23,341 nucleotides of DNA from Candidatus Latescibacterota bacterium (GTDB taxonomy: Bacteria; JAAXHH01; JACQVL01). A program made the translations under genes and the position numbers. Positions 1 through 23,341 of the stretch are shown in pieces (positions within the stretch are counted from its first letter, which is position 1; the number at the start of each line of letters is the position of its first letter). The DNA is taken from contig JACQVL010000069.1 of assembly GCA_016209865.1 (NCBI GenBank), forward strand, positions 1 through 23,341, in the 5' to 3' direction. The notes under the pieces are model-generated. The model saw nothing but the letters and a program-made list of their open reading frames with translations. It was not told where the DNA came from and ran no database searches.

Positions 1-60
1 CCGTAGGGGCGATCCTTGTGATCGCCCGCATCGGGGCGAATACAAGATTCGCCCCTACAG
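1..60. repeat. Dispersed double-hairpin palindromic repeat
   Basis: The outer ends are complementary (gtagggg near base 3, cccctac ending near base 58). Inside are two separate hairpins. The first has arms gggcgatc and gatcgccc around a short ttgt-type loop (about 7-27). The second has arms ggggcgaat and attcgcccc around a short loop (about 34-56). The whole can fold as a cruciform or cloverleaf. Elements of this appearance are common as dispersed intergenic repeats in several bacterial phyla; that is recall from general knowledge, not a search. It may be a REP-like element or a small non-autonomous transposon. It starts at the window edge, so its left end may be incomplete. Confidence 0.75.
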
Positions 61-13475: not shown

Positions 13476-13490
13476 AGAAGTTTGGGAAAG

Positions 13491-13617
13491 ACAGTGGTCA
13501 GTGGTCAGTAAAAACCAAACCGCAGACAAGCTGGTGATTTTCCCGTACCATGTACTGCGTCATTCCCTCGAAAGCGGGAAGTCCATGGATTAGCTCTTAC
13601 TGACCACTGACCACTGA
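13491..13617. repeat. Heptad foldback element with dRS3-like core (locus b)
   Basis: The left arm (13492-13511) and right arm (13597-13616) are exact reverse complements over 20 nt, built of the word AGTGGTC. The right arm ends at the base before the stop codon (13618-13620) of the dehydratase/reductase gene, and the left arm ends 16 nt before the sbcC start. Between them lies a decayed copy of the ATTCCC-N8-GGGAA core (13562-13580) followed by GTCCATGG. It fills nearly the whole space between the two genes, and in mRNA would form a stem of at least 20 bp. Confidence 0.9.
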
Positions 13618-14601
13618 CTACTGTCCCTGTACATGCTCACGCCAGTAGTTGAGGCATTCTTCGATCGTCTCCTGCCAGGTGTAGGTCGGGGCCCATCCGG
13701 TGGCCTGGCGGAATTTGGTGCTATCGCCGATCAGGACGGGCACGTCGGATGGGCGCATCCGGCTGGGGTCCTCCCTGGTGGTGATCGTGACGTCGCTCAG
13801 GCTGAGCAGATGGTCGAGCATATCACGAATACGCGGGGAGTTCCCGGAGGCGATGTTGTAGGCCTCTCCCCATTCGCAGTGCCCGTCGAGGCTCATCCAG
13901 TAGGCGCGCACGATGTCCTTCACGTTCGTCATATCACGGATGGGATCGAGGTTGCCGTGGGAGATGACGGGTTCGCGGAGGCCGCGTTCGATCTGGGCGA
14001 TCTGAACGCTGAACGAGGCTTCGGAGAACCCTTCATGCCGCCGGGCGCCGCTGTGGTTGAACGCCCGGGTCCGGACGATCTTCATCCCATAGCTTTTGGC
14101 ATACTGCCATCCGAGCACATCCTGCGCCACTTTACTGCACCCGTAGGGGGAGAGCGGACGCAGCGGGTTCGTTTCTTTCACCGGAATCTCATGCGCGTGG
14201 ACGAGACCATATTCCTCGCTGCTCCCGCAGATCTGGATTCGGCATTCCAGACAGGCTTCCCGGATGGCTTCGAACAGGTTCACCTGCCCGACGGCGTTCG
14301 TGACCAGACACTCGGCGGGGGCCAGCCACGAGGTCGGGACGTGGGACATCGCCGCCGTGTGAATACAGCGTTCGGGTTGATACTTTCTCAGGATCGTGTA
14401 CAGGCTATGGGTGTCGGTCAAATCTCCGATTTCCCAGAGCACCTTCGGGTGGTGGAGCAGGTGGGTGACATTCTTCAGGTCCGACCGGCGGCGGCGCATC
14501 GCCACGATCTCGTAATCCGGATGTTCGGCGAGGATGTAGTCGATCATCGTGCTGCCGACCATCCCGGTCGCCCCGGTGACAAGGACGGATGACATGGACA
14601 T
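13618..14601 (-). CDS. NAD(P)-dependent sugar-nucleotide dehydratase/reductase (GMD/RMD-like SDR)
   Basis: This 327-residue extended short-chain dehydrogenase probably converts a GDP- or other NDP-sugar for surface polysaccharide synthesis. It has the Rossmann motif GATGMVG (10-16), S127-S128-E129 in GSSEEYG, and the catalytic Y153-x-x-x-K157 (SPYGCSK). The segments IHTAAMSHVPTSW and RTRAFNHSGARRHE recall GDP-mannose 4,6-dehydratase and GDP-4-keto-6-deoxymannose reductase; I cannot decide between them. Its ATG at 14601 overlaps the sbcD stop as TAATG, with GGAGG a few bases upstream, so translation is coupled to sbcD. A second ATG at 14595 is possible. Its 3' end runs straight into a heptad repeat. 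Confidence 0.85.
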   Translation of the reverse strand: MSMSSVLVTGATGMVGSTMIDYILAEHPDYEIVAMRRRRSDLKNVTHLLHHPKVLWEIGDLTDTHSLYTILRKYQPERCIHTAAMSHVPTSWLAPAECLVTNAVGQVNLFEAIREACLECRIQICGSSEEYGLVHAHEIPVKETNPLRPLSPYGCSKVAQDVLGWQYAKSYGMKIVRTRAFNHSGARRHEGFSEASFSVQIAQIERGLREPVISHGNLDPIRDMTNVKDIVRAYWMSLDGHCEWGEAYNIASGNSPRIRDMLDHLLSLSDVTITTREDPSRMRPSDVPVLIGDSTKFRQATGWAPTYTWQETIEECLNYWREHVQGQ

Positions 14602-15851
14602 TATCCTCCAGACGACGCCTGGTGCTCTTCTTCGAGTTCACGCTGCAGTAGTTGAGCGCACCGTTTCATGTCTGCGGCGTACGATTCAAGGTCAGGGTTG
14701 TTCTCGAAATAGCGGTCAAGCGCGTCGAGACAACTCAGTTCTTCAGAGACGGCCGCGCGCCTGATCCGCTGAGGGGTTTCCGTCTTCCGCACGATGCTGG
14801 CGACGAGAAACGCCTGGTCTAAGCCAGCCCGGAGCGCTCTGAGGTCGATCTTGTGCTGCAGTTCCTCCGGCACGGTATAGATGACCCGCACGATCGCGCC
14901 CGCGAGGTCTCGGCGTTCGATCTCGCGGAGGATGGTGTGCGTCGGCTGTTCGTCCTCCGGGCTGATCGTCACGTCGATCGTGATAAACGGCCGGGCCGGC
15001 GTCGGGATAAACCGGTACTGCACCTCCTTACCGTCCAGTTCAACCAGGCAAAACCCTTTCTCTTCCTGCTCTTCCCCGAAATCGACCCGTTCGATACTGC
15101 CGGGGTAGACGACGCGGGGCTTCCCACGCGGGTTGAGGTCCTGGAACCGGTGGACATGGCCGAGGGCGCAGTAGTCGAACGCCGGGTTGGCCAGGACGCT
15201 CGTCAGGATCGTCGGGTCATGCCCGATGACGGCGGAGCGTTCTGTGCCGGACAGCCGGGCATCCGCCGCGGTGATGTGGGCGAGGAGAAACGACGGGAGC
15301 GACGGGTCGAGGTCGTCCGCCCACGACTGGATGATGGTGGTACAGATTTCTTCGATCTTCTGCCGTATCTCCGTTTCGGAAAGGTCTTTATACTCATCCT
15401 TCGTCAACAACGTGCTCTTCGTCGGCCAGGGAAGGCAGGCGACCTGTACCGCGCCCTGTTTCGTCTGGATGACGAGCTTCTCCGGTTTCGAGATGATGGC
15501 GATGTCCGTGACGCCGAGCGTCCCGAAGATATCGATCGAAGACGCCTTCCCGTACGCCACCGGGTTGTCATGGTTCCCGATGATCATGACGACCGGGATC
15601 CCGGCATCGCTGAACCGGCGGAACTGCGCGGCAAATGCCCGCTGGTGGGTCGGAGTCGGGTCGCACGTGCGGTACGCATCCCCCGCGAAGAGGACGAGGT
15701 CGGCTTTTTCCTCGATGCCCGTATCGACCGCGAAGCTGAGGCACTTGGAGAAGTCCTGCAGCCGGGTATGGAGTCCGGTCGCCGGGTCGAGCCGTCCGTA
15801 GTTCTCCATCCCCATGTGGATGTCAGCGATGTGAAGGATTTTGAGGGACAT
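14601..15851 (-). CDS. sbcD: SbcD, exonuclease SbcCD nuclease subunit (Mre11-like)
   Basis: This 416-residue calcineurin-type phosphoesterase provides the nuclease site of SbcCD. Metal-binding motifs appear in order: D10-I-H12 (HIADIHMG), GD58 (FAGDAY), GN93-H94-D (IGNHDNP), H in LLAHITAA (about 205), and GHVH in CALGHVHRF (about 235). The C-terminal third (about 290-416) would be the capping and SbcC-binding region. ATG 15851 is the natural start as homology begins at once (MSLKILHIADIHMG), but no Shine-Dalgarno is visible: the repeat arm of locus c begins about 10 nt upstream. The stop overlaps the start of the sugar-nucleotide gene. Confidence 0.95.
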   Translation of the reverse strand: MSLKILHIADIHMGMENYGRLDPATGLHTRLQDFSKCLSFAVDTGIEEKADLVLFAGDAYRTCDPTPTHQRAFAAQFRRFSDAGIPVVMIIGNHDNPVAYGKASSIDIFGTLGVTDIAIISKPEKLVIQTKQGAVQVACLPWPTKSTLLTKDEYKDLSETEIRQKIEEICTTIIQSWADDLDPSLPSFLLAHITAADARLSGTERSAVIGHDPTILTSVLANPAFDYCALGHVHRFQDLNPRGKPRVVYPGSIERVDFGEEQEEKGFCLVELDGKEVQYRFIPTPARPFITIDVTISPEDEQPTHTILREIERRDLAGAIVRVIYTVPEELQHKIDLRALRAGLDQAFLVASIVRKTETPQRIRRAAVSEELSCLDALDRYFENNPDLESYAADMKRCAQLLQRELEEEHQASSGG

Positions 15852-15860
15852 GGAAAAACC

Positions 15861-15997
15861 AGGGGTCAGGGGTCAGGATTCAGGGGTCAGGAAAGGAATA
15901 GGTCACAAGTCATAAGGTCACAGGTCGGAAGGTCGCAAGCCGGAATCTGACCTTCGACCTTTATGTTTTTCCTGACCCCCGACCCCTGACCCCTCAG
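15861..15997. repeat. Nested heptad foldback element (locus c)
   Basis: The outer left arm repeats AGGGGTC (15861-15892) and the outer right arm is its reverse complement (15970-15994). They match at 22 of 25 positions over 15868-15892. An inner set of AGGTCAC/AGGTCGG words (15900-15936) folds on TGACCTTCGACCT (15948-15961), giving a second hairpin in the first. The right arm ends 2 nt before the oxidoreductase stop (16000-16002), and the left arm begins about 9 nt before the sbcD start. There is no ATTCCC-type core. Confidence 0.85.
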
Positions 15998-15999
15998 TT

Positions 16000-17202
16000 C
16001 TACAGCTTCCAATATTCGTTGATGTCCTTCTGGTACCCCTCGACCTTCCCGGCGACGACCTCGTCGACGGAGACGGCCTGGCCGCACCAGGATGACTCGT
16101 AGATCGCCTCGCTGATGGCTTTTGCTCGCAGGCCATCCCACCCATCGACTTCCGGGCGGCGGCGATGGGCGACGGCATCGATGAAATCATAACATTCGAG
16201 CACGACCCCGTCGGTGATCCCGTGGGGAAAGAGCTGTTCCTTGCGTCCGGCGTCCAGGCTGAGCAGGAATTCGATCTTCAAGTCGTTCAGATACTTCACC
16301 GATCCTTCTTTGAGTTGTACTTCCGGGTTGCCCGACATGAAGCCGTGGAAGACATCCCCTGTGTCCTCGATCGACCCTTCGCTGCCGTAGTACAGCACGT
16401 GGTTAAACCCTTTGCCGGGCGCGGCCTGCGACCAGCTCCAGGTGCCGATCAGACCGCTCTTGAACGTCAGGGTCGCCGTCCAGGAATCCTCCACGTCGCC
16501 GCACACAGTCTGACCGGACGCGTCCGTATACTCCTTCGGTTCGAACGCGCGGACTTCCGCGTACACCCGGTCGACGTCCCCGAAGAAATACCGGATACTG
16601 TCCATGTAGTGCGCCCCGCTGTCCATCACCATCCAGCCGCCGCTCATTCGCTTCTGGACTCGCCATTGCATCGCCCCGCTGGACAGGCTGGAGGGAGACC
16701 AGCTCGCGTGCTGGACGAAGAACAGGCGCGGCGTCCCGATCATCTTCCGTTCGTTCAGCACCCAGTGGATCGTCCGCTGTCCTAAGTACCGGCGGATGTT
16801 CTCCGCGGTGGCCACGATCCGGCCGTGCTGTTCGGCGGTCTCGATGATCTTCCGGCTGGCTTTGACAGTAATGCCGAGGGGTTTTTCGATGATGACATCG
16901 ACCCCGGATTCCAGGCAGGGGAGGGCGGAGGCGTGGTGATAACAGTGCGGGGTGGCGATGTCAGCGGCGGTCAGGGATTCCTGCTTCAGCATCATCTCGA
17001 CAGCGGTGTACACGTTCGGGGATTTCCCCTGGAATTCCCGGATGGTGCGGGCAAACCCGCGTGCCCGTTCCTCCACGGTGTCGCAGACGGCGGCGAGTTC
17101 AAAATTCCCGATGCCGCGCGTCTTCAGCGTCTGATACGCCCGCAGGTGCCCCCCGGCCATGCCGCCACACCCGATCATCGCCAATCGTACGGGTTCCGCC
17201 AT
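16000..17202 (-). CDS. Gfo/Idh/MocA-family NAD(P)-dependent oxidoreductase
   Basis: This 400-residue sugar or inositol-type dehydrogenase has the N-terminal Rossmann motif GCGGMAGGH (11-19). The family's E106-K107-P108 follows VDVII, and D194-x-x-x-H198 (MDSGAHYMD) is the likely catalytic part of the C-terminal domain. ATG 17202 has GGAGG about 6 nt upstream; the frame stays open to 17352 but that part is not protein-like. The substrate is unknown, as family members use many sugars and cyclitols. The nearby sugar-nucleotide gene and glycosyltransferases make a polysaccharide role possible, but it is separated from them by repeats and sbcCD. It is divergent from the EamA gene. Confidence 0.9.
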   Translation of the reverse strand: MAEPVRLAMIGCGGMAGGHLRAYQTLKTRGIGNFELAAVCDTVEERARGFARTIREFQGKSPNVYTAVEMMLKQESLTAADIATPHCYHHASALPCLESGVDVIIEKPLGITVKASRKIIETAEQHGRIVATAENIRRYLGQRTIHWVLNERKMIGTPRLFFVQHASWSPSSLSSGAMQWRVQKRMSGGWMVMDSGAHYMDSIRYFFGDVDRVYAEVRAFEPKEYTDASGQTVCGDVEDSWTATLTFKSGLIGTWSWSQAAPGKGFNHVLYYGSEGSIEDTGDVFHGFMSGNPEVQLKEGSVKYLNDLKIEFLLSLDAGRKEQLFPHGITDGVVLECYDFIDAVAHRRRPEVDGWDGLRAKAISEAIYESSWCGQAVSVDEVVAGKVEGYQKDINEYWKL

Positions 17203-17384
17203 GCGTTCCTCCGTTCGTTCCGTCGTGTGAGGCTTTTGTCCGGTGTCCTGCCGCGTCCCTAACGTCCAGAATATGTTGAGTATACGACGTGGCAAAAAGG
17301 CTGTCAAATGAATTTTCAAGACTGCATGGGCAGATGGACGGTGAAGAGGCAAAAGCAGTCGATCTGTCTTTTTGGGTTTCCCGT

Positions 17385-17419
17385 ACCCCTAACCCCGAAT
17401 CCCGAACCCCGAATCCCCT
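17385..17419. repeat. Single-arm heptad array (locus d)
   Basis: Five consecutive 7-nt units run without a break: ACCCCTA, ACCCCGA, ATCCCGA, ACCCCGA, ATCCCCT. It lies in the divergent space between the oxidoreductase and the EamA transporter, 17 nt before the nearer EamA ATG. I see no inverted partner nearby. The same words in the same orientation occur 1.5 kb away at locus f. Confidence 0.85.
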
Positions 17420-17453
17420 TTCGCCTTTTCGCCCCATGCTTTATTTTGTGCCC

Positions 17454-18317
17454 ATGCGTCTCTCCCCCTATCTCGGCCTGGCGTTCGGCGTCGCGTGTAC
17501 CGCTGGCGCGGCCATCTTGATCCGTTTAACGGATGCGCCATCCCTGGTCATCGCCGCGTACCGACTGACGATGGCCTCTGTCCTGCTCCTGCCGGTCGCG
17601 CTCCTGCGGTCGGGCGAGGAACGAAGACGCCTGACGGGGCGGGATTGGCGCTGGATGGCGGCATCTGGCGGGCTGTTGGCCGTCCATTTCGCGTCGTGGA
17701 TCTCCTCCCTCGCCTACACGTCTGTCGCCAGCTCGGTCGTGCTCGTCACCACCTACCCCCTCTTCGTCGGCCTGGGAGCACACTGGCTGATGCGCGAGCG
17801 GCTCTCATCCGGGATGTTAGGCGGCATCCTGGTGGCCGTCATCGGCGGAGGGATCATCGGGTACGGGGATTTCAGCTCCGGGCGCGATGCGCTCTTCGGG
17901 GATGCCCTGGCCGTCGTGGGCGCGTTCTCCGGGGGCGGGTATTTGATGATCGGCCGGCATCTGCGCCGCCGGTTGTCGTTGATGACCTACATCGCGGTCG
18001 TCTACTCGACGGCAGCGGTCATCTTAGCGGTCATCGCCGTGGGGGCGGGCTACCCGGTGACCGGGTATTCCCGGATGACCTACATGCTGCTCCTGGCGCT
18101 GGCGGTCGGGCCTCAACTCCTCGGCCATTCTTCCCTCAACTGGGCGCTGAAGTACCTGTCCGCCGCGTTCGTCAGCGTGAGCGCCCTGGGGGAACCGGTC
18201 GGCGCGACCGTGCTGGCGGCGGTTGTGCTCGGAGAGCCCGTCCCACCGTTGAAGCTCGCTGGCGGCGTGTTCGTCCTGACGGGTATTTATCTGACGTTGC
18301 GGGAAGAACAACGTTAA
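17454..18317 (+). CDS. EamA/DMT-family transporter
   Basis: This 287-residue inner-membrane protein has about ten hydrophobic segments in two EamA repeats (about residues 5-140 and 150-285). Examples are YLGLAFGVACTAGAAILIRL near the start and LGEPVGATVLAAVVLGEPVP followed by PLKLAGGVFVLTGIYLTL at the end; the GEP-x(3)-A-x(4)-GE motif is typical of the second repeat. Such proteins export or import metabolites such as amino acids, and the substrate cannot be predicted. ATG 17454 (MRLSPYLG) is my choice; ATG 17436 adds six residues. Neither has a ribosome site, as a heptad array occupies the leader. Its stop codon lies inside the octad repeat shared with the convergent BCCP gene. Confidence 0.9.
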   Translation: MRLSPYLGLAFGVACTAGAAILIRLTDAPSLVIAAYRLTMASVLLLPVALLRSGEERRRLTGRDWRWMAASGGLLAVHFASWISSLAYTSVASSVVLVTTYPLFVGLGAHWLMRERLSSGMLGGILVAVIGGGIIGYGDFSSGRDALFGDALAVVGAFSGGGYLMIGRHLRRRLSLMTYIAVVYSTAAVILAVIAVGAGYPVTGYSRMTYMLLLALAVGPQLLGHSSLNWALKYLSAAFVSVSALGEPVGATVLAAVVLGEPVPPLKLAGGVFVLTGIYLTLREEQR

Positions 18318-18394
18318 CACGTTGGAACGTTAGAACGTTTACACGTTCACCCATGAACAACGTTCAAACGTTAGAACGTTCTAACGTGCCAACG
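18311..18394. repeat. Octad foldback element between convergent genes (locus e)
   Basis: Five 8-nt units of the form ACGTTNNN run at 18311-18350 (ending AAC, GGA, AGA, TAC, CAC). After six bases, units of the form NNNACGTT run at 18357-18394. The arms are inverted, and AACGTT is itself a palindrome. The EamA stop TAA (18315-18317) is part of the first unit, and the last unit ends at the base before the BCCP stop (18395). It may serve as a shared terminator, though there is no T-tract. Period 8 differs from the 7 seen elsewhere. Confidence 0.9.
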
Positions 18395-18901
18395 CTATCT
18401 TTCTAACACCACCAGCACATCCCCCTTATTCACCGCATCCCCTGGCTGGACTCGCACCTCTTTCACCCGCCCGTCCGCGTGGGCCCGCAGCTCGTTCTCC
18501 ATCTTCATCGCTTCGATGATGACGACGCCCTGTCCGGCGGTGACGGCATCTCCGACGGCGACTTCGACCGCGAGCACCCGGCCGGGCATCGGGGCGGTGA
18601 TCGTTTGAGGAGCCGTCCGGTGATGCCGCTTCACCGCGCCACGGAGCCGGGCGACAGAGGCGGATTCGACGGCCACGTCGTAGACAACTCCATCGATCAT
18701 CACCCGCCAGACGTCCGAGACCTCCAGCACCGTCGCCGTGTACGACCGCCCATCGATCAGGAGCGAGTAGGTGGCCGCTGAATCGAGGGGGACGAGGTCG
18801 ACCTGCATGGGGACGCCGGTGATGTCAACCCGCGTCGAGCCGGGCTGGTCCTCAACGTCCACGGTAAACGAGTTGGCTCCCAGATTTGCCAGGTATTTCA
18901 T
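18395..18901 (-). CDS. Biotin carboxyl carrier protein of acyl-CoA carboxylase (BT-BCCP)
   Basis: This 168-residue protein carries carboxybiotin between the biotin carboxylase and the carboxyltransferase encoded upstream. The C-terminal biotinyl domain (about 98-168) has the E130-A-M-K133-M site, where Lys133 would be biotinylated, with the flanking APMPGRV and GDAV turns. Residues 1-90 form a beta-rich region (YSLLIDGRSYTATV, WRVMIDGVVYDVAVE) like the BT domain that tethers BCCP in propionyl-CoA carboxylase alpha chains. ATG 18901 has AGAGG about 6 nt upstream; the frame upstream (to 18982) is the heptad array and the accC end in another frame. It is the last gene of the carboxylase operon. 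Confidence 0.92.
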   Translation of the reverse strand: MKYLANLGANSFTVDVEDQPGSTRVDITGVPMQVDLVPLDSAATYSLLIDGRSYTATVLEVSDVWRVMIDGVVYDVAVESASVARLRGAVKRHHRTAPQTITAPMPGRVLAVEVAVGDAVTAGQGVVIIEAMKMENELRAHADGRVKEVRVQPGDAVNKGDVLVVLER

Positions 18902-18915
18902 CGATACCTCTTTCC

Positions 18916-18945
18916 TTCCCGAACCCCTAATCCCGAACCCCGAGC
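18916..18945. repeat. Single-arm heptad array (locus f)
   Basis: Four 7-nt units (TTCCCGA, ACCCCTA, ATCCCGA, ACCCCGA) plus a partial GC fill the 44-nt gap between the biotin carboxylase stop (18946-18948) and the BCCP start. Read on the gene strand the array begins right after the stop codon. The words are shared with locus d, in the same orientation. There is no inverted partner. Confidence 0.85.
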
Positions 18946-20439
18946 CTACCGAAGGGCCGCCCGCCGTCCGGCCAGCTTCCACGGGCTGTGGCCGGGGGCG
19001 CTGCTCGATGAGACCGGGGTCCGCATCGTCTGCTGGTGCCGGTGTGCCATGATGGCGGCGAAGGCGGCCGCGACCAGGGGCTGGTGATCGGTCTCAGCCG
19101 GTGGGGTCATCTGGTGGAGAAAGCTCGTCGAATACTGGCCTGACACGAACCGGGGGTCAGCCAGGGCGCGCAGATGGAAGGGAATCGTCGTCTTGATGCC
19201 CCCGATGTCGTACTCGGCAAGGGCGCGTCGCATCCGGGCGATCGCTTCGTCCCGGTCCGCCGCCCAGACGATCAGCTTGGCGATGAGCGGGTCATAGTAG
19301 ATCGGAACTTCATACCCGCGATACATCCCGCTGTCGAGACGGACGCCCGGGCCGCCGGGCTCGGTCAGCCGGGTGATCAGGCCGATGGACGGGATGAAGT
19401 TGTCGTCCGGGTCTTCGGCGGAGACCCGGCATTCGATCGCCGCGCCCGTGAACCGGATCGACGCTTGCGTGAACGGGAGGGGTTCGCCGGCCGCGATGCG
19501 GATCTGTGCTTTGACCAGGTCGAGGCCGGTGCGCATCTCCGTGACCGGATGCTCCACCTGCAGCCTGGTGTTCATCTCTAAGAAATAGAAATGGCGATCC
19601 TGATCGACGATGAACTCGATCGTCCCCGCGTTCGTGTACCCGACCGCTTCTGCGGCGCGGACAGCCGCTTTACCCATCGCGCGCCGCATCGCGTCGTCGA
19701 GCGCGCACGACGGGGATTCTTCGATCAGTTTCTGATGCCGGCGCTGCACGGAACATTCCCGTTCGCCCAGATGGACGACGTGGCCGTGGGCATCCGCGAG
19801 CACCTGGAACTCCACATGCCGGGGCTCGCTCAGACACTTCTCGACGTAGACCGTCGGGTCGCCGAATGCAGACTGCGCCTCCGACCGCGCGGCCCGGAGG
19901 GCGCCGGCCAGTTCCCCCTCGTCCTGCACGACGCGCATCCCTTTTCCGCCCCCGCCCATCGCCGCTTTGATGAGCACCGGATACCCGATGGATCGGGCCA
20001 CCCGGCCGGCCTCCGTGTCGTCCGCTAACCCTTCGTCGGTGCCGGGGACGACGGGCACGTGCGCGGCTCGCATCGTCCGCCGCGCCGCGGTCTTATCCCC
20101 CATCGCCCGGATGGCGGGACCGGACGGCCCGATGAAAGTCAGTCCCGCATCCGCGCAGAGGTCGGCGAAGTCCGCGTTCTCGGCGAGAAACCCGTAGCCG
20201 GGATGGATGGCCTCCGCCCCGGCTCGACGAGCCACCTCGACCAGTGTTTCGCCGCGGAGATAACTTTCTGTCGAGGGCGGTAGGCCGATGGAGTACGCTT
20301 CATCCGCGTAGCGGACGTGCAGGGCGCTCCGGTCCGCCTCAGAGAACACGGCGACGGCCGCGATGTCCATCTCATGACACGACCGGATGATCCGGACGGC
20401 GATCTCCCCCCGGTTGGCAATTAATATCTTCCTAAACAT
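18946..20439 (-). CDS. accC: Biotin carboxylase subunit of acyl-CoA carboxylase
   Basis: This 497-residue ATP-grasp enzyme carboxylates biotin on the BCCP with ATP and bicarbonate. The N-terminus FRKILIANRGEIAVRIIRSC, the glycine loop GGGGKGM (162-168), EVEFQV-type strand RHVEFQVLAD, and EMNTRLQVEHPVTE (288-301, Arg292 catalytic) are all present. It exceeds bacterial AccC (about 450) by some 50 residues; the tail ends in HSPWKLAGRR, which resembles the start of the BT domain in fused PccA/MccA chains. ATG 20439 is fixed by homology; the nearest ribosome-site match (AAAGG) is about 13 nt away. It lies between the carboxyltransferase and BCCP genes in one operon, with repeats in both gaps. Confidence 0.95.
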   Translation of the reverse strand: MFRKILIANRGEIAVRIIRSCHEMDIAAVAVFSEADRSALHVRYADEAYSIGLPPSTESYLRGETLVEVARRAGAEAIHPGYGFLAENADFADLCADAGLTFIGPSGPAIRAMGDKTAARRTMRAAHVPVVPGTDEGLADDTEAGRVARSIGYPVLIKAAMGGGGKGMRVVQDEGELAGALRAARSEAQSAFGDPTVYVEKCLSEPRHVEFQVLADAHGHVVHLGERECSVQRRHQKLIEESPSCALDDAMRRAMGKAAVRAAEAVGYTNAGTIEFIVDQDRHFYFLEMNTRLQVEHPVTEMRTGLDLVKAQIRIAAGEPLPFTQASIRFTGAAIECRVSAEDPDDNFIPSIGLITRLTEPGGPGVRLDSGMYRGYEVPIYYDPLIAKLIVWAADRDEAIARMRRALAEYDIGGIKTTIPFHLRALADPRFVSGQYSTSFLHQMTPPAETDHQPLVAAAFAAIMAHRHQQTMRTPVSSSSAPGHSPWKLAGRRAALR

Positions 20440-20464
20440 ACTTTAGGAAAGTCCTTTCTCATCT

Positions 20465-20547
20465 AAGGACAAAAGACAAAGTACGAAGGACGAAAAAGCA
20501 AGTCGATTCTTTTCACTTTCGTCCTTTGTCCTTCGTATTTCGTCCTT
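20465..20547. repeat. Heptad foldback element (locus g)
   Basis: Left arm 20465-20495 and right arm 20517-20547 are 31 nt each and are reverse complements at 26 of 31 positions. They are built of words such as AAGGACG, AAGGACA and AAGTACG. The loop is 21 nt and has no ATTCCC-type core. The right arm ends at the base before the carboxyltransferase stop (20548-20550). It lies inside an operon, so the stem would form in the mRNA between two subunit genes and could affect their relative output. Confidence 0.9.
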
Positions 20548-22098
20548 TCATAATGGAATATTCCCGTGCTTCTTCGGGGGGTTCGTATCCCGCTTGTTCT
20601 TCAGCATCTCCAGGGCGGCGATCAGACGGGGACGAGTCTCCTGTGGTTGGATGACCTCATCAATGTAGCCCATCCGCGCGGCGATGTACGGGTTGTCGAA
20701 TTTCTCGCGGAACTCCGCGATCAGGCGCTGCCGGGTCGCCTCCGGGTCCTTCTCTTGAGCGATCTCGCGCCGGTAGAGGATGTTGACCGACCCTTCCGGC
20801 CCCATGACCGCAAACTGCGCGGTCGGCCAGGCGTAATTGATGTCCGCCCGGATGTGTTTGCTGTTCATCACACAGTACGCCCCCCCGTACGCCTTGCGGG
20901 TCACGACGGTCAGCCGGGGGACGGTGCTCTCGCAGAACGCGTACAGGAGCTTGGCGCCCTCTTTGATCACCCCGCCGTGCTCCTGACTGACGCCGGGGAG
21001 GAAGCCGGGAACGTCCTCGAACACGACGAGCGGGAGGTTGAACGCGTCGCAGAACCGGACGAACCGGGCCCCCTTGACGGAGGAGCGGATGTCGAGCACC
21101 CCCGCTAAGGACGCGGGCTGGTTGGCCACGATGCCCACCGGCTTCCCGTTTAGCCGGGCAAACCCGATGACGAGGTTGTCGGCAAACTCTTTCTGAACCT
21201 CCATGAAGTCGCCGTGATCGATGACCCGTGTGATGACATCCCGGATGTCGTACGGTTTATTCGGGTCATCCGGGACGATGCGGGTCAGCGCCTCGTCCAT
21301 CCGGTTCGGGTCGTCCGTCGACTCGACGGCGGGCGGGTCTTCCAGGTTGTTCGACGGCAGGAAGGCGAGGAGGCGTTTCACGTCGAGGAGGCAGGTCGCT
21401 TCGTCGGCCGCCGCAAAATGGGCGACCCCGCTCACCGAGTTATGGGTGTGCGCCCCGCCTAACTCCTCGAACGTCACCTCTTCATGCGTGACCGACCGGA
21501 TGACGTCCGGGCCGGTGATGAACATGTAGCTTGTATCCTCGACCATGAAGACAAAATCCGTGATGGCGGGAGAATAGACCGCGCCCCCCGCGCAGGGGCC
21601 CATGATGACGGAGATTTGCGGGATAACTCCGGACGCGAGGACGTTGCGCAGAAAAATATCGGCGTACCCGGCCAGACTGATCACGCCCTCCTGGATGCGC
21701 GCCCCGCCGGAGTCCTTCAGGCCGATGAGCGGCGCCCCGTTCTTCATGGCCAGGTCCATCACCTTGCAGATTTTCTCTCCATACGCCAGGCCGAGCGACC
21801 CGCCGAACACGGTGAAGTCTTCGGCGATGACGTAGACGAGCCGGCCGCCGATCGTGCCGTAACCGGTCACCACCCCGTCGCCGAGAATCCGGCGGTCCCC
21901 CATCCCGAAGTCGTCGCACCGGTGGGTGACGAACGCGCCCAGTTCTTGAAAACTGCCTTCGTCGACAAGGAAGGCGACGCGCTCGCGGGCGGTCCATTTC
22001 CCCGCCTGGTGCTGTTTTTTGATGCGCTCGCTTCCCCCGCCCAGACTGGCTTCCTGGCGGAGAGCTTCCACACGTTTCATCTTCTCGACCATCGACAT
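20548..22098 (-). CDS. pccB: Acyl-CoA (propionyl-CoA-type) carboxyltransferase subunit
   Basis: This 516-residue crotonase-fold carboxyltransferase moves CO2 from carboxybiotin to an acyl-CoA, most likely propionyl- or acetyl-CoA. Family features are ARERVAFLVDEGSFQELGAF, the oxyanion-hole segments KDSGGARIQEGV (128-139) and SQEHGGVIKEGAKLLYAF (371-388), and AYGGAYCVMNSKHIRAD (403-419). It is as long as PccB. Cys409 stands where Asp marks propionyl-CoA enzymes and Ile acetyl-CoA enzymes in actinobacteria, so the substrate is open. Start 22098 has GGAGAGGGG about 7 nt upstream; ATG 22092 is possible. It is the first gene of the carboxylase operon. A methylmalonyl-CoA decarboxylase alpha subunit is less likely because a biotin carboxylase is present. 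Confidence 0.93.
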   Translation of the reverse strand: MSMVEKMKRVEALRQEASLGGGSERIKKQHQAGKWTARERVAFLVDEGSFQELGAFVTHRCDDFGMGDRRILGDGVVTGYGTIGGRLVYVIAEDFTVFGGSLGLAYGEKICKVMDLAMKNGAPLIGLKDSGGARIQEGVISLAGYADIFLRNVLASGVIPQISVIMGPCAGGAVYSPAITDFVFMVEDTSYMFITGPDVIRSVTHEEVTFEELGGAHTHNSVSGVAHFAAADEATCLLDVKRLLAFLPSNNLEDPPAVESTDDPNRMDEALTRIVPDDPNKPYDIRDVITRVIDHGDFMEVQKEFADNLVIGFARLNGKPVGIVANQPASLAGVLDIRSSVKGARFVRFCDAFNLPLVVFEDVPGFLPGVSQEHGGVIKEGAKLLYAFCESTVPRLTVVTRKAYGGAYCVMNSKHIRADINYAWPTAQFAVMGPEGSVNILYRREIAQEKDPEATRQRLIAEFREKFDNPYIAARMGYIDEVIQPQETRPRLIAALEMLKNKRDTNPPKKHGNIPL

Positions 22099-22115
22099 CG
22101 GACAACCCCTCTCCT

Positions 22116-22264
22116 ATTTTGGATTTTAGATTTTGGATTTTGGATTACTGGTCTGCGGCAAGTGCTTAGACCATCGAGCAAACGCGATTCGGCTTTCATG
22201 GGTTAGTCCCGTGCGAGCAGGAATCCATTCTCCAACCCAAAATCCGAAATCCAAAATCCAAAAT
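22116..22264. repeat. Heptad foldback element with decayed dRS3-like core (locus h)
   Basis: The left arm (22116-22143) is four units of ATTTTGG or ATTTTAG. The right arm (22237-22264) is its reverse complement at 26 of 28 positions. Between them, at about 22205-22232, is TAGTCCC-GTGCGAGC-AGGAATCCATTC, a degraded copy of the ATTCCC-N8-GGGAATCCA core at locus a. The right arm ends at the base before the glycosyltransferase stop (22265-22267). The left arm ends 18 nt from the pccB start codon, leaving room only for its ribosome site. Confidence 0.9.
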
Positions 22265-23341
22265 CTACCTTAGCCATCCCCGCTCCTGGTACATCGCCTG
22301 CATCCGTCTCACCACGTTCCGGGCGTCATGGTACTGCTCGACCCACTGCCGGCCGTGCTGGCCGTGCGCGTGGCGAAGACGCGGGCTGCGGATCAAGTCT
22401 ACCAGGCGGCCGTACAGCGTCTCCGCGTTGACGTTGACGAACGGATGGTCGGGGATGAACGCCTCATGGTCGGGCGGCAGGTTGGTGCAGACGGGAATCC
22501 CCATCGACAAAGCTTCCAGCGAACTCATCCCGTATCCGACCCCGCCTGCGTTGGTGATCTGGTCGATGACGATGTCACTCGTCTGTTTGAGGGCGATGAC
22601 CTCCGCATGAGGTTTCCGTTCGACGAACACGAACTCGATCCCGTGTTCGTGTTCGAGTCGTTTCCCGACCGCGATGATCCAGTCTGAGCCTTTATACCGC
22701 CGGTTGGTCGCGGAATGGAAGACCCGGAGTCGGGGGTTCTCGCCGTCACGCACCCGGTACCGCCCGGGATCGAACGGGAAGAACAGGTACGTGATGCGTG
22801 GGTGGAGGCGCAGGTGGTCGAACTCCACCGTGAAATTGAGATGACTGACCGCATCGACCGCCGGGATGACGCCGCGGGTTCTGAGATCGCTGCCTAAGTA
22901 GCAGCAGACGATCTTCTTCCCTCGCGCGTGTAACGCCTGAACGTGTTCTCCGGTCCGGAAGAAATCCAGTCCGCCGTCGAGTTGATACAGATCATGATTG
23001 AAGAAATCAAGGGACTCCAGGGCGGCGTGTATGCGACGACGCCAGAGACGTTCTCGAATCGTGATAAGCGCTGCTTCCAGCCGGTTCCCTGGTGCCCAGA
23101 CGAGGGGGCATTTCGCCTTTTCGCCGGGTTCTCTTTTCACCCCTGTTAATGCCCGCTGGCTTGCCGACGACAGCCGATCCCGCGCGGCACAGAACAACCG
23201 GCCGTCGAGCCAGGGCAGGTCGAGGCAGAGGTCCTCCTCGAACCCGTACCGGTTCCGTCCGAACGTGACCAGCCGGCTGTCGATGCCGAGCGCGCGTTCC
23301 GCCTTCACGAAGGCGATGGGCACCCCGGCGGTGTTGAACGG
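22265..23341 (-). CDS. Glycosyltransferase (GT-B, family 4-like), 5' end beyond the window
   Basis: At least 358 residues of a GT-B glycosyltransferase are visible. A GTG at 23323 could be a start, but the frame is open to the window edge and encodes NTAGVP just before it, a normal N-terminal loop, so the gene most likely continues outside. The C-terminal half has RLRVFHSATNRRYKGSDWII, then TSDIVIDQITNAGGVGYGMS and SLEALSMGIPVCTNLPPDHE, the donor-binding region with the E-x(7)-E-like pattern. The unusual middle (LDFFNHDLYQLDGGLDFFRT) is not specific. The role is presumably in polysaccharide synthesis, like the pair at 8045-10343. Confidence 0.88.
   Translation of the reverse strand, partial: PFNTAGVPIAFVKAERALGIDSRLVTFGRNRYGFEEDLCLDLPWLDGRLFCAARDRLSSASQRALTGVKREPGEKAKCPLVWAPGNRLEAALITIRERLWRRRIHAALESLDFFNHDLYQLDGGLDFFRTGEHVQALHARGKKIVCCYLGSDLRTRGVIPAVDAVSHLNFTVEFDHLRLHPRITYLFFPFDPGRYRVRDGENPRLRVFHSATNRRYKGSDWIIAVGKRLEHEHGIEFVFVERKPHAEVIALKQTSDIVIDQITNAGGVGYGMSSLEALSMGIPVCTNLPPDHEAFIPDHPFVNVNAETLYGRLVDLIRSPRLRHAHGQHGRQWVEQYHDARNVVRRMQAMYQERGWLR

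Follow-up and report, generated by a model that had tools for sequence, protein, structure and literature searches.

Tandem arrays at the gene ends of the window

The window analyzed here is a 23,341-nt contig (JACQVL010000069.1; contig C356) of the draft genome of a Candidatus Latescibacterota bacterium (GCA_016209865.1; 3.75 Mb in 356 contigs, 83% complete); no further member of the same family was present among the genomes searched. The gaps between its genes hold short tandem arrays of 7- or 8-nt words, labeled a to h in Table 1. It had been proposed from the sequence that such arrays begin exactly at stop codons, and this is what we observed at arrays b, c, e, f, g, and h, where "exactly" has to be read as about -7 to +5 nt from the stop. 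The original prediction was also right that the stop codon at array b fits the repeated word, that the EamA stop lies inside array e, and that the 3' end of sbcD (stop at 14601), which has no real gap downstream, is without an array.

Table 1. Tandem arrays in the window and the gene ends beside them
Array	Position	Word	Neighboring gene end and remarks
a, left	1394-1446	GTGGTCG x2, then AGTGACG x4	Upstream of the minus-strand gene 171-1376, whose start is at 1376
a, right	1588-1605	GGTGGTC	27 nt before the start (1633) of the MazG-family gene; breaks the polarity rule
b, start-side arm	13489-13521	CAGTGGT	Beside the sbcC-like start (13475)
b, stop-side arm	13599-13623		Overlap with the epimerase TAG stop (13618-13620), which is itself a variant of the repeated word
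c, start-side arm	15860-15894	CAGGGGT	8 nt from the sbcD-like start (15851)
c, stop-side arm	about 15968-15994		5 nt from the stop of the Gfo/Idh/MocA oxidoreductase gene at 16000
d	17380-17428	CCCGAAC	Sense strand C-rich; 25 nt before the EamA start (17454)
e, left arm	18311-18350	AACGTTnn (8-nt period)	EamA stop TAA (18315-18317) inside
e, right arm	18359-18394		Adjoins the stop of the biotin/lipoyl-domain gene at 18395
f	about 18919-18943	CGGGGTT (weak)	About 2 nt past the TAG stop (18946) of the biotin carboxylase gene; weakest case, visible by eye, under the detector threshold
g, start-side arm	20465-20495	GAAGGAC	25 nt from the biotin carboxylase start (20439)
g, stop-side arm	20517-20547		Adjoins the TGA stop (20548-20550) of the carboxyltransferase gene
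h, start-side arm	22116-22146	TTTTGGA	17 nt from the carboxyltransferase start (22098)
h, stop-side arm	22234-22265		1-nt overlap with the TAG stop (22265-22267) of the gene 22265-23323

Placement, polarity, and pairing across the genome

Does this placement extend to the rest of the genome? We read 537 kb of it (∼14%), consisting of the window and 514 kb more, taken from 20 regions on contigs picked for GGTCAGG arrays and from 20 contigs picked by number. Contigs selected for one word make up more than half of the sequence read, a bias that affects abundance but should not affect distance or polarity. For gene calling, we used a home-made codon-model program, whose calls in the window were sensible; start positions are less certain than stop positions, whatever the gene caller. 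Runs of self-match with a period of 6 to 9 were scored as arrays. This procedure revealed 209 arrays with a period of 7 or 8, including 185 with a period of 7, compared to 2 period-7 arrays in Markov-resampled sequence, and a chance origin was rejected on these counts. Several unrelated words coexist in the genome (AGTGACG, GATTTTG, CAGGGGT, CGGTGGT, GAAGGAC, CGGGGTT, and the 8-nt AACGTTnn), and 162 of the 209 arrays lie in called intergenic gaps, which make up 8% of bases.

Measured genome-wide, the distance from stop codon to array had a median of 4 nt (quartiles, -1 and 11), compared to 21 nt when arrays were placed at random within these gaps. In codirectional gaps of 120 to 180 nt, an array edge lay within 10 nt of the stop in 24 of 29 cases (5.7 expected; maximum of 12 in 200 simulations), and in those of 180 to 500 nt the corresponding count was 6 of 11 (1.5 expected). 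Abutment to the stop is thus not a by-product of short gaps, since 30 of 40 stop sides in gaps of 120 to 500 nt had an array edge this close (7 expected). Some arrays go further, as 40 of the 104 stop-side arrays begin before or within the stop codon. In the AGTGACG family, the TGA of the word itself serves as the stop, giving a ladder of distances (-5, -12, and -19) with a 7-nt step. Protein tails encoded by an array were found at C223:9955-10096, C190:23477-23602, and L017:4407-4581. Attraction was tighter at the stop side than at the start side, where arrays tended to be absent from the last 10 nt before the start and peaked 15 to 20 nt upstream. This reserve of about 15 to 20 nt is the room left for the ribosome-binding site.

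The arrays also share a polarity. When read from the gene outward into the gap, the G-rich strand runs 5' to 3' in 134 arrays, compared to 12 with the reverse arrangement. In codirectional gaps, the counts were 72 to 5 in the stop half and 39 to 1 in the start half, and arrays without a partner in the same gap followed the same rule (35 to 4 in the stop half; 7 to 0 in the start half). Convergent gaps gave 11 to 0, and divergent gaps only 12 to 6. One potential explanation, an idea raised for Xanthomonas and Nostoc, is that formation of G-quadruplexes determines both placement and strand. The words CAGGGGT and CGGGGTT do contain G-tracts, and four G-runs of at least three are present in 26 of the 185 period-7 arrays. 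However, arrays lacking any GGG or CCC keep the polarity (95 to 10) and a median stop distance of 3 nt, which excludes quadruplexes as the general cause and leaves this explanation very improbable.

Could a process tied to the stop codon or the 3' end, such as transcription continuing after ribosome release, seed the arrays, as was also suggested originally? The attraction to stops in long gaps, its tighter hold at stops than at starts, and the G-rich sense strand of partnerless arrays beside stops all fit such a process. Divergent gaps, however, contain no 3' end and are array bearing at much the same rate per gap (35%) as codirectional (37%) and convergent (31%) gaps. Their start sides are approached as well, with an array within 25 nt in 10 of 28 cases (3.1 expected). 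Stop codon usage was little changed beside arrays (TAA at 25 of 64 stops, compared to 127 of 475 elsewhere). Because divergent gaps carry arrays as often per gap and start sides are approached, seeding from the 3' end is unlikely, and we give it a small chance.

In gaps with two or more arrays, the same word was found inverted at both outer ends in 29 of 43 cases and in direct orientation in none; shuffling of partners predicted 5.8 inverted cases, with a maximum of 14 in 2,000 shuffles. Outside the arms of paired blocks, only 16 nt of the gap remain (medians, 3.5 nt on the stop side and 17.5 nt on the start side). These pairs raise the possibility that the arms fold in the transcript into an RNA hairpin that protects the upstream mRNA 3' end or attenuates the downstream gene, as has been proposed for repetitive extragenic palindromes (REP) and bacterial interspersed mosaic elements (BIME), and that selection holds the arms at the stop and before the ribosome-binding site. 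The excess of same-word inverted pairs is in agreement with this idea, and so is the folding of five window gaps, which is far better than that of shuffled sequence (z of -4.3 to -8.0). An inverted partner was, however, detected in only 51 of the 116 array gaps, and arrays are also present in divergent gaps. The arms within one gap were no more similar to each other than to same-word arms of other gaps (12 of 28), and pairing is therefore not preserved where positions vary. In one gap (C223:35452-35670), the words at the two ends differ and a terminator-like stem stands between them. Because 65 of 116 gaps have no detectable partner, variable positions are unmatched, and the end words of this gap differ, a hairpin function at the RNA level cannot be general; we regard it as a possible but doubtful reason for the placement.

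Two narrower candidates were rejected. Fine-scale homogenization from arm to arm was not seen (12 of 28). Intrinsic terminators, consisting of a stem and a T-run, were not found either: a scan of loops of 3 to 8 nt gave no terminator-like site at the arrays between 13400 and 22400, and the window hairpins have no T-run terminators, which also speaks against the hairpin explanation.

Added DNA and the origin of the blocks

The arrays have the form of blocks. Their ends are fixed within the word (AGT...GAGT, GATT...GATT, CAG...CAG, and CGGT...CGGT), they usually contain 3 to 4 units (period-7 blocks are typically 18 to 32 nt long, or about 2.5 to 4.5 units), and both of their flanks are A-rich, with 51 to 68% A at the nearest positions compared to 24% in the background. 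We considered A-rich sequence after the stop as a target and rejected this possibility, as stops without nearby arrays are not A-rich. The A-rich flanks come with the block, because array-free stops are not followed by A. Based on their fixed ends, unit number, and A-rich flanks, the arrays look more like placed blocks than like tracts expanding until stopped.

The source genome can be compared with a relative of the same order (G002; ∼1.3 Mb read), in which 120 kb contained no period-7 arrays. Array-free relatives with the same gene pairs let added DNA be seen. At conserved codirectional gene pairs, gap length differed from that in G002 by a median of +68 nt where the source genome has arrays (n = 13) and by +2 nt where it has none (n = 31; P = 2.7e-4). 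The G002 gaps measure -16 to 182 nt at gene pairs where the source genome has 39 to 219 nt. The gaps of the array-free relative are much shorter between these genes, so the arrays are added DNA. At the junction of the carboxyltransferase and biotin carboxylase genes, 8 to 10 nt lie between stop codon and ATG in most relatives of the order, compared to a 108-nt hairpin in the window; the C-terminal residues of the carboxyltransferase are nonetheless the same as in the relatives.

These data bear on the earlier suggestion that arrays grow until they reach a selective boundary set by the coding sequence. The part concerning a boundary was supported and fits most of the data, in that the arrays are added DNA that ends at the last needed base or supplies the stop itself and that spares the ribosome-binding site. 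The part concerning growth gained no support, given the fixed ends, the 3 to 4 units, and the A-rich flanks. Neither the selective-boundary reading nor the 3'-end reading accounts for polarity.

A second sequence element occurs in the loops between array arms. This dRS3-like stem (ATTCCC-N-GGGAA) is found in the window at about 1468-1493 and 13561-13586 and has sequence matches in Neisseria, among others. Among gaps of at least 60 nt, it was present in 22 of 101 array-bearing gaps and in 4 of 119 array-free gaps (Fisher P = 3e-5).

Added DNA may also arrive as a mobile element, either with terminal inverted repeats or resembling REP sequences or miniature inverted-repeat transposable elements (MITE). 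Such an element would be a compact hairpin, its 5' arm rich in G and its 3' arm rich in C, that inserts in gaps, and single arrays would be its decayed copies. Paired arms of fixed polarity with defined ends and A-rich flanks, the extra DNA relative to related genomes, and the nesting of arrays within one gap (C223:9955-10096) are consistent with this scenario. The arms, however, bracket the whole gap and do not delimit a compact insert. When array-masked gaps were matched against each other, most matches were to the dRS3-like stem, and the other top matches were dispersed palindromes, largely from array-free gaps. No Y1/IS200-type transposase was found in the source genome (83% complete) or in the genome of another genus of the same order (G013; 378 kb read), and mobilization by RAYT, the transposase associated with REP, was rejected because Y1 (PF01797) was missing from both. 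We consider a mobile element unlikely, if conceivable.

The explanation to which we give an even chance is that the arrays are short dispersed repeat blocks that have been added to intergenic DNA and kept where nothing essential breaks, with polarity and inversion stemming from the making or copying of blocks in pairs at the DNA level. According to this explanation, the added blocks of 3 to 4 units of a 7- to 8-nt word, with fixed ends and A-rich flanks, would survive only at sites where they break nothing essential. On the 3' side, such blocks could reach as far as the last essential codon, and on the 5' side as far as the ribosome-binding site, so that abutment to the stop would mark the edge of the tolerated space, the stop itself not being recognized. 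The weakest step is the last, in which polarity and same-word inversion would reflect the paired making or copying of blocks. This explanation is supported by the shorter gaps of relatives, by the stops and tails that arrays supply, by the avoidance of the 10 nt before starts, by the little sequence left outside paired arms, by the frequency of arrays per gap, which is independent of gene orientation, and by the polarity and crowding at stops in G013.

Several points weigh against this explanation. Tolerance alone does not predict abutment to the edge in gaps of 120 to 500 nt unless the middle of the gap is constrained, and it does not predict the polarity, which holds even in partnerless arrays. 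Per base, divergent gaps are poorer in arrays (13 array gaps in 9.3 kb, compared to 93 in 25.2 kb). No enzyme or intermediate was identified, genes were predicted with a home-made caller, and about one-seventh of the genome (∼14%) was covered. The preference for edges in long gaps, together with the outward facing of the arrays, may say something about how the blocks form. One reading holds that a DNA-level process lays oriented blocks of 7 to 8 nt, of any word, at the boundaries between coding and noncoding sequence at both gene ends, with the G-rich strand outward, and sends an inverted copy to the other edge of the gap, the same process acting in unrelated phyla with other words. We put this forward tentatively, as an outside possibility. 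If the polarity is mechanistic, it would point to an undescribed way of building intergenic DNA.

Other genomes, known heptamer repeats, and further repeats nearby

The rule recurs with other words in G013, where polarity was 48 to 6 and arrays also crowd stops; its words, for example in L240-L257, include 7- and 8-nt arrays of AACTCACC, ACCTGCCC, and AAATCACC. Cyanobacterial short tandemly repeated repetitive (STRR) sequences are intergenic heptamer tandem repeats whose words may resemble those of the source genome. A likeness in placement was seen in a single case on plasmid C of Trichormus variabilis (L238:15416-15450), where a period-7 array lies 2 nt past a stop and the gene strand is G-rich. 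In BLAST searches of array words against plasmids, the best matches covered the adjacent dRS3-like stem alone, the arrays presumably having been masked by the low-complexity filter.

The closest described repeats are those reported by Rehm et al. (2015; PMC4692102), namely, GGGAATC in two xanthomonads and GGGGA(C/T)T in Nostoc. In that report, four units were preferred, the Xanthomonas repeats formed inverted pairs, and repeats lay within 50 bp of a stop on the coding strand or of a start on the noncoding strand, with some overlapping the stop; no function was found. The arrays of the source genome share with these repeats the 7-nt unit, the number of about four units, the intergenic bias, the use of the coding strand near stops and the noncoding strand near starts, and the inverted pairs. 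Perfect tandems of GGGAATC or GGGGA(C/T)T were absent from the source sequence read. Unlike the Xanthomonas and Nostoc repeats, the source genome has many words, most of them without the ability to form quadruplexes, and distances of a few nucleotides. Divergent gaps were under-represented in the study by Rehm et al.; in the source genome, this is true per base but not per gap.

A second comparison is with TAACTGA repeats in Beggiatoaceae, Cyanobacteria, and Bacteroidetes (MacGregor 2015; PMC4679880), which form intergenic heptamer arrays before starts with a strand bias. Some of these arrays overlap and end the upstream open reading frame, and one set lies directly after the stop in reversed orientation. 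The word-supplied stops described above extend MacGregor's observation that forward TAACTGA repeats terminate reading frames. Unlike the source-genome arrays, the TAACTGA system has one word, is mostly on the start side, and rarely shows inverted pairs, and tandem TAACTGA had 0 copies in the source sequence read. REP and BIME, as described in a 2013 review of GTAG and CGTC REPs (PMC3733652), are intergenic inverted hairpins that often lie near or overlap coding regions and are plausibly transcribed. The source-genome arrays differ from them in being tandem 7-mers of many words with no Y1 transposase found.

The phenomenon is therefore known in kind from the Xanthomonas, Nostoc, and TAACTGA reports. 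What is new is that the rule does not depend on the word and that it is so sharp, together with the evidence from empty sites, the stops supplied by words, and the recurrence in G013 with other words. Because many unrelated words obey one rule, a cause tied to one particular sequence is argued against, and the placement rule of 2015, once a peculiarity of certain words, becomes a general one on where a tract sits and which way it faces.

Other repeats were seen beside or apart from the arrays. Nested layers occur at C223:9955-10096 and in L009 near 4120, where an outer GGTCGGT/GGTCAGT array is followed by AACAATC and then by an AGTGACG array. In the window, a second degenerate array (AGGTCACAAGTC..., period of about 15) and its own inverted partner are nested between the arms of array c (15900-15965). 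The first 60 nt of the window (1-60) hold an imperfect palindrome of about 56 nt (GTAGGGGCGATC...GATTCGCCCCTAC), which is a dispersed repeat with more copies in intergenic sequence of L020, L025, L029, and L037 and at C223:26185. Finally, a period-6 palindromic tract (ACGAACACGAAC...GTTCGTGTTCG) lies at 22623-22658 within the coding sequence of the last gene.

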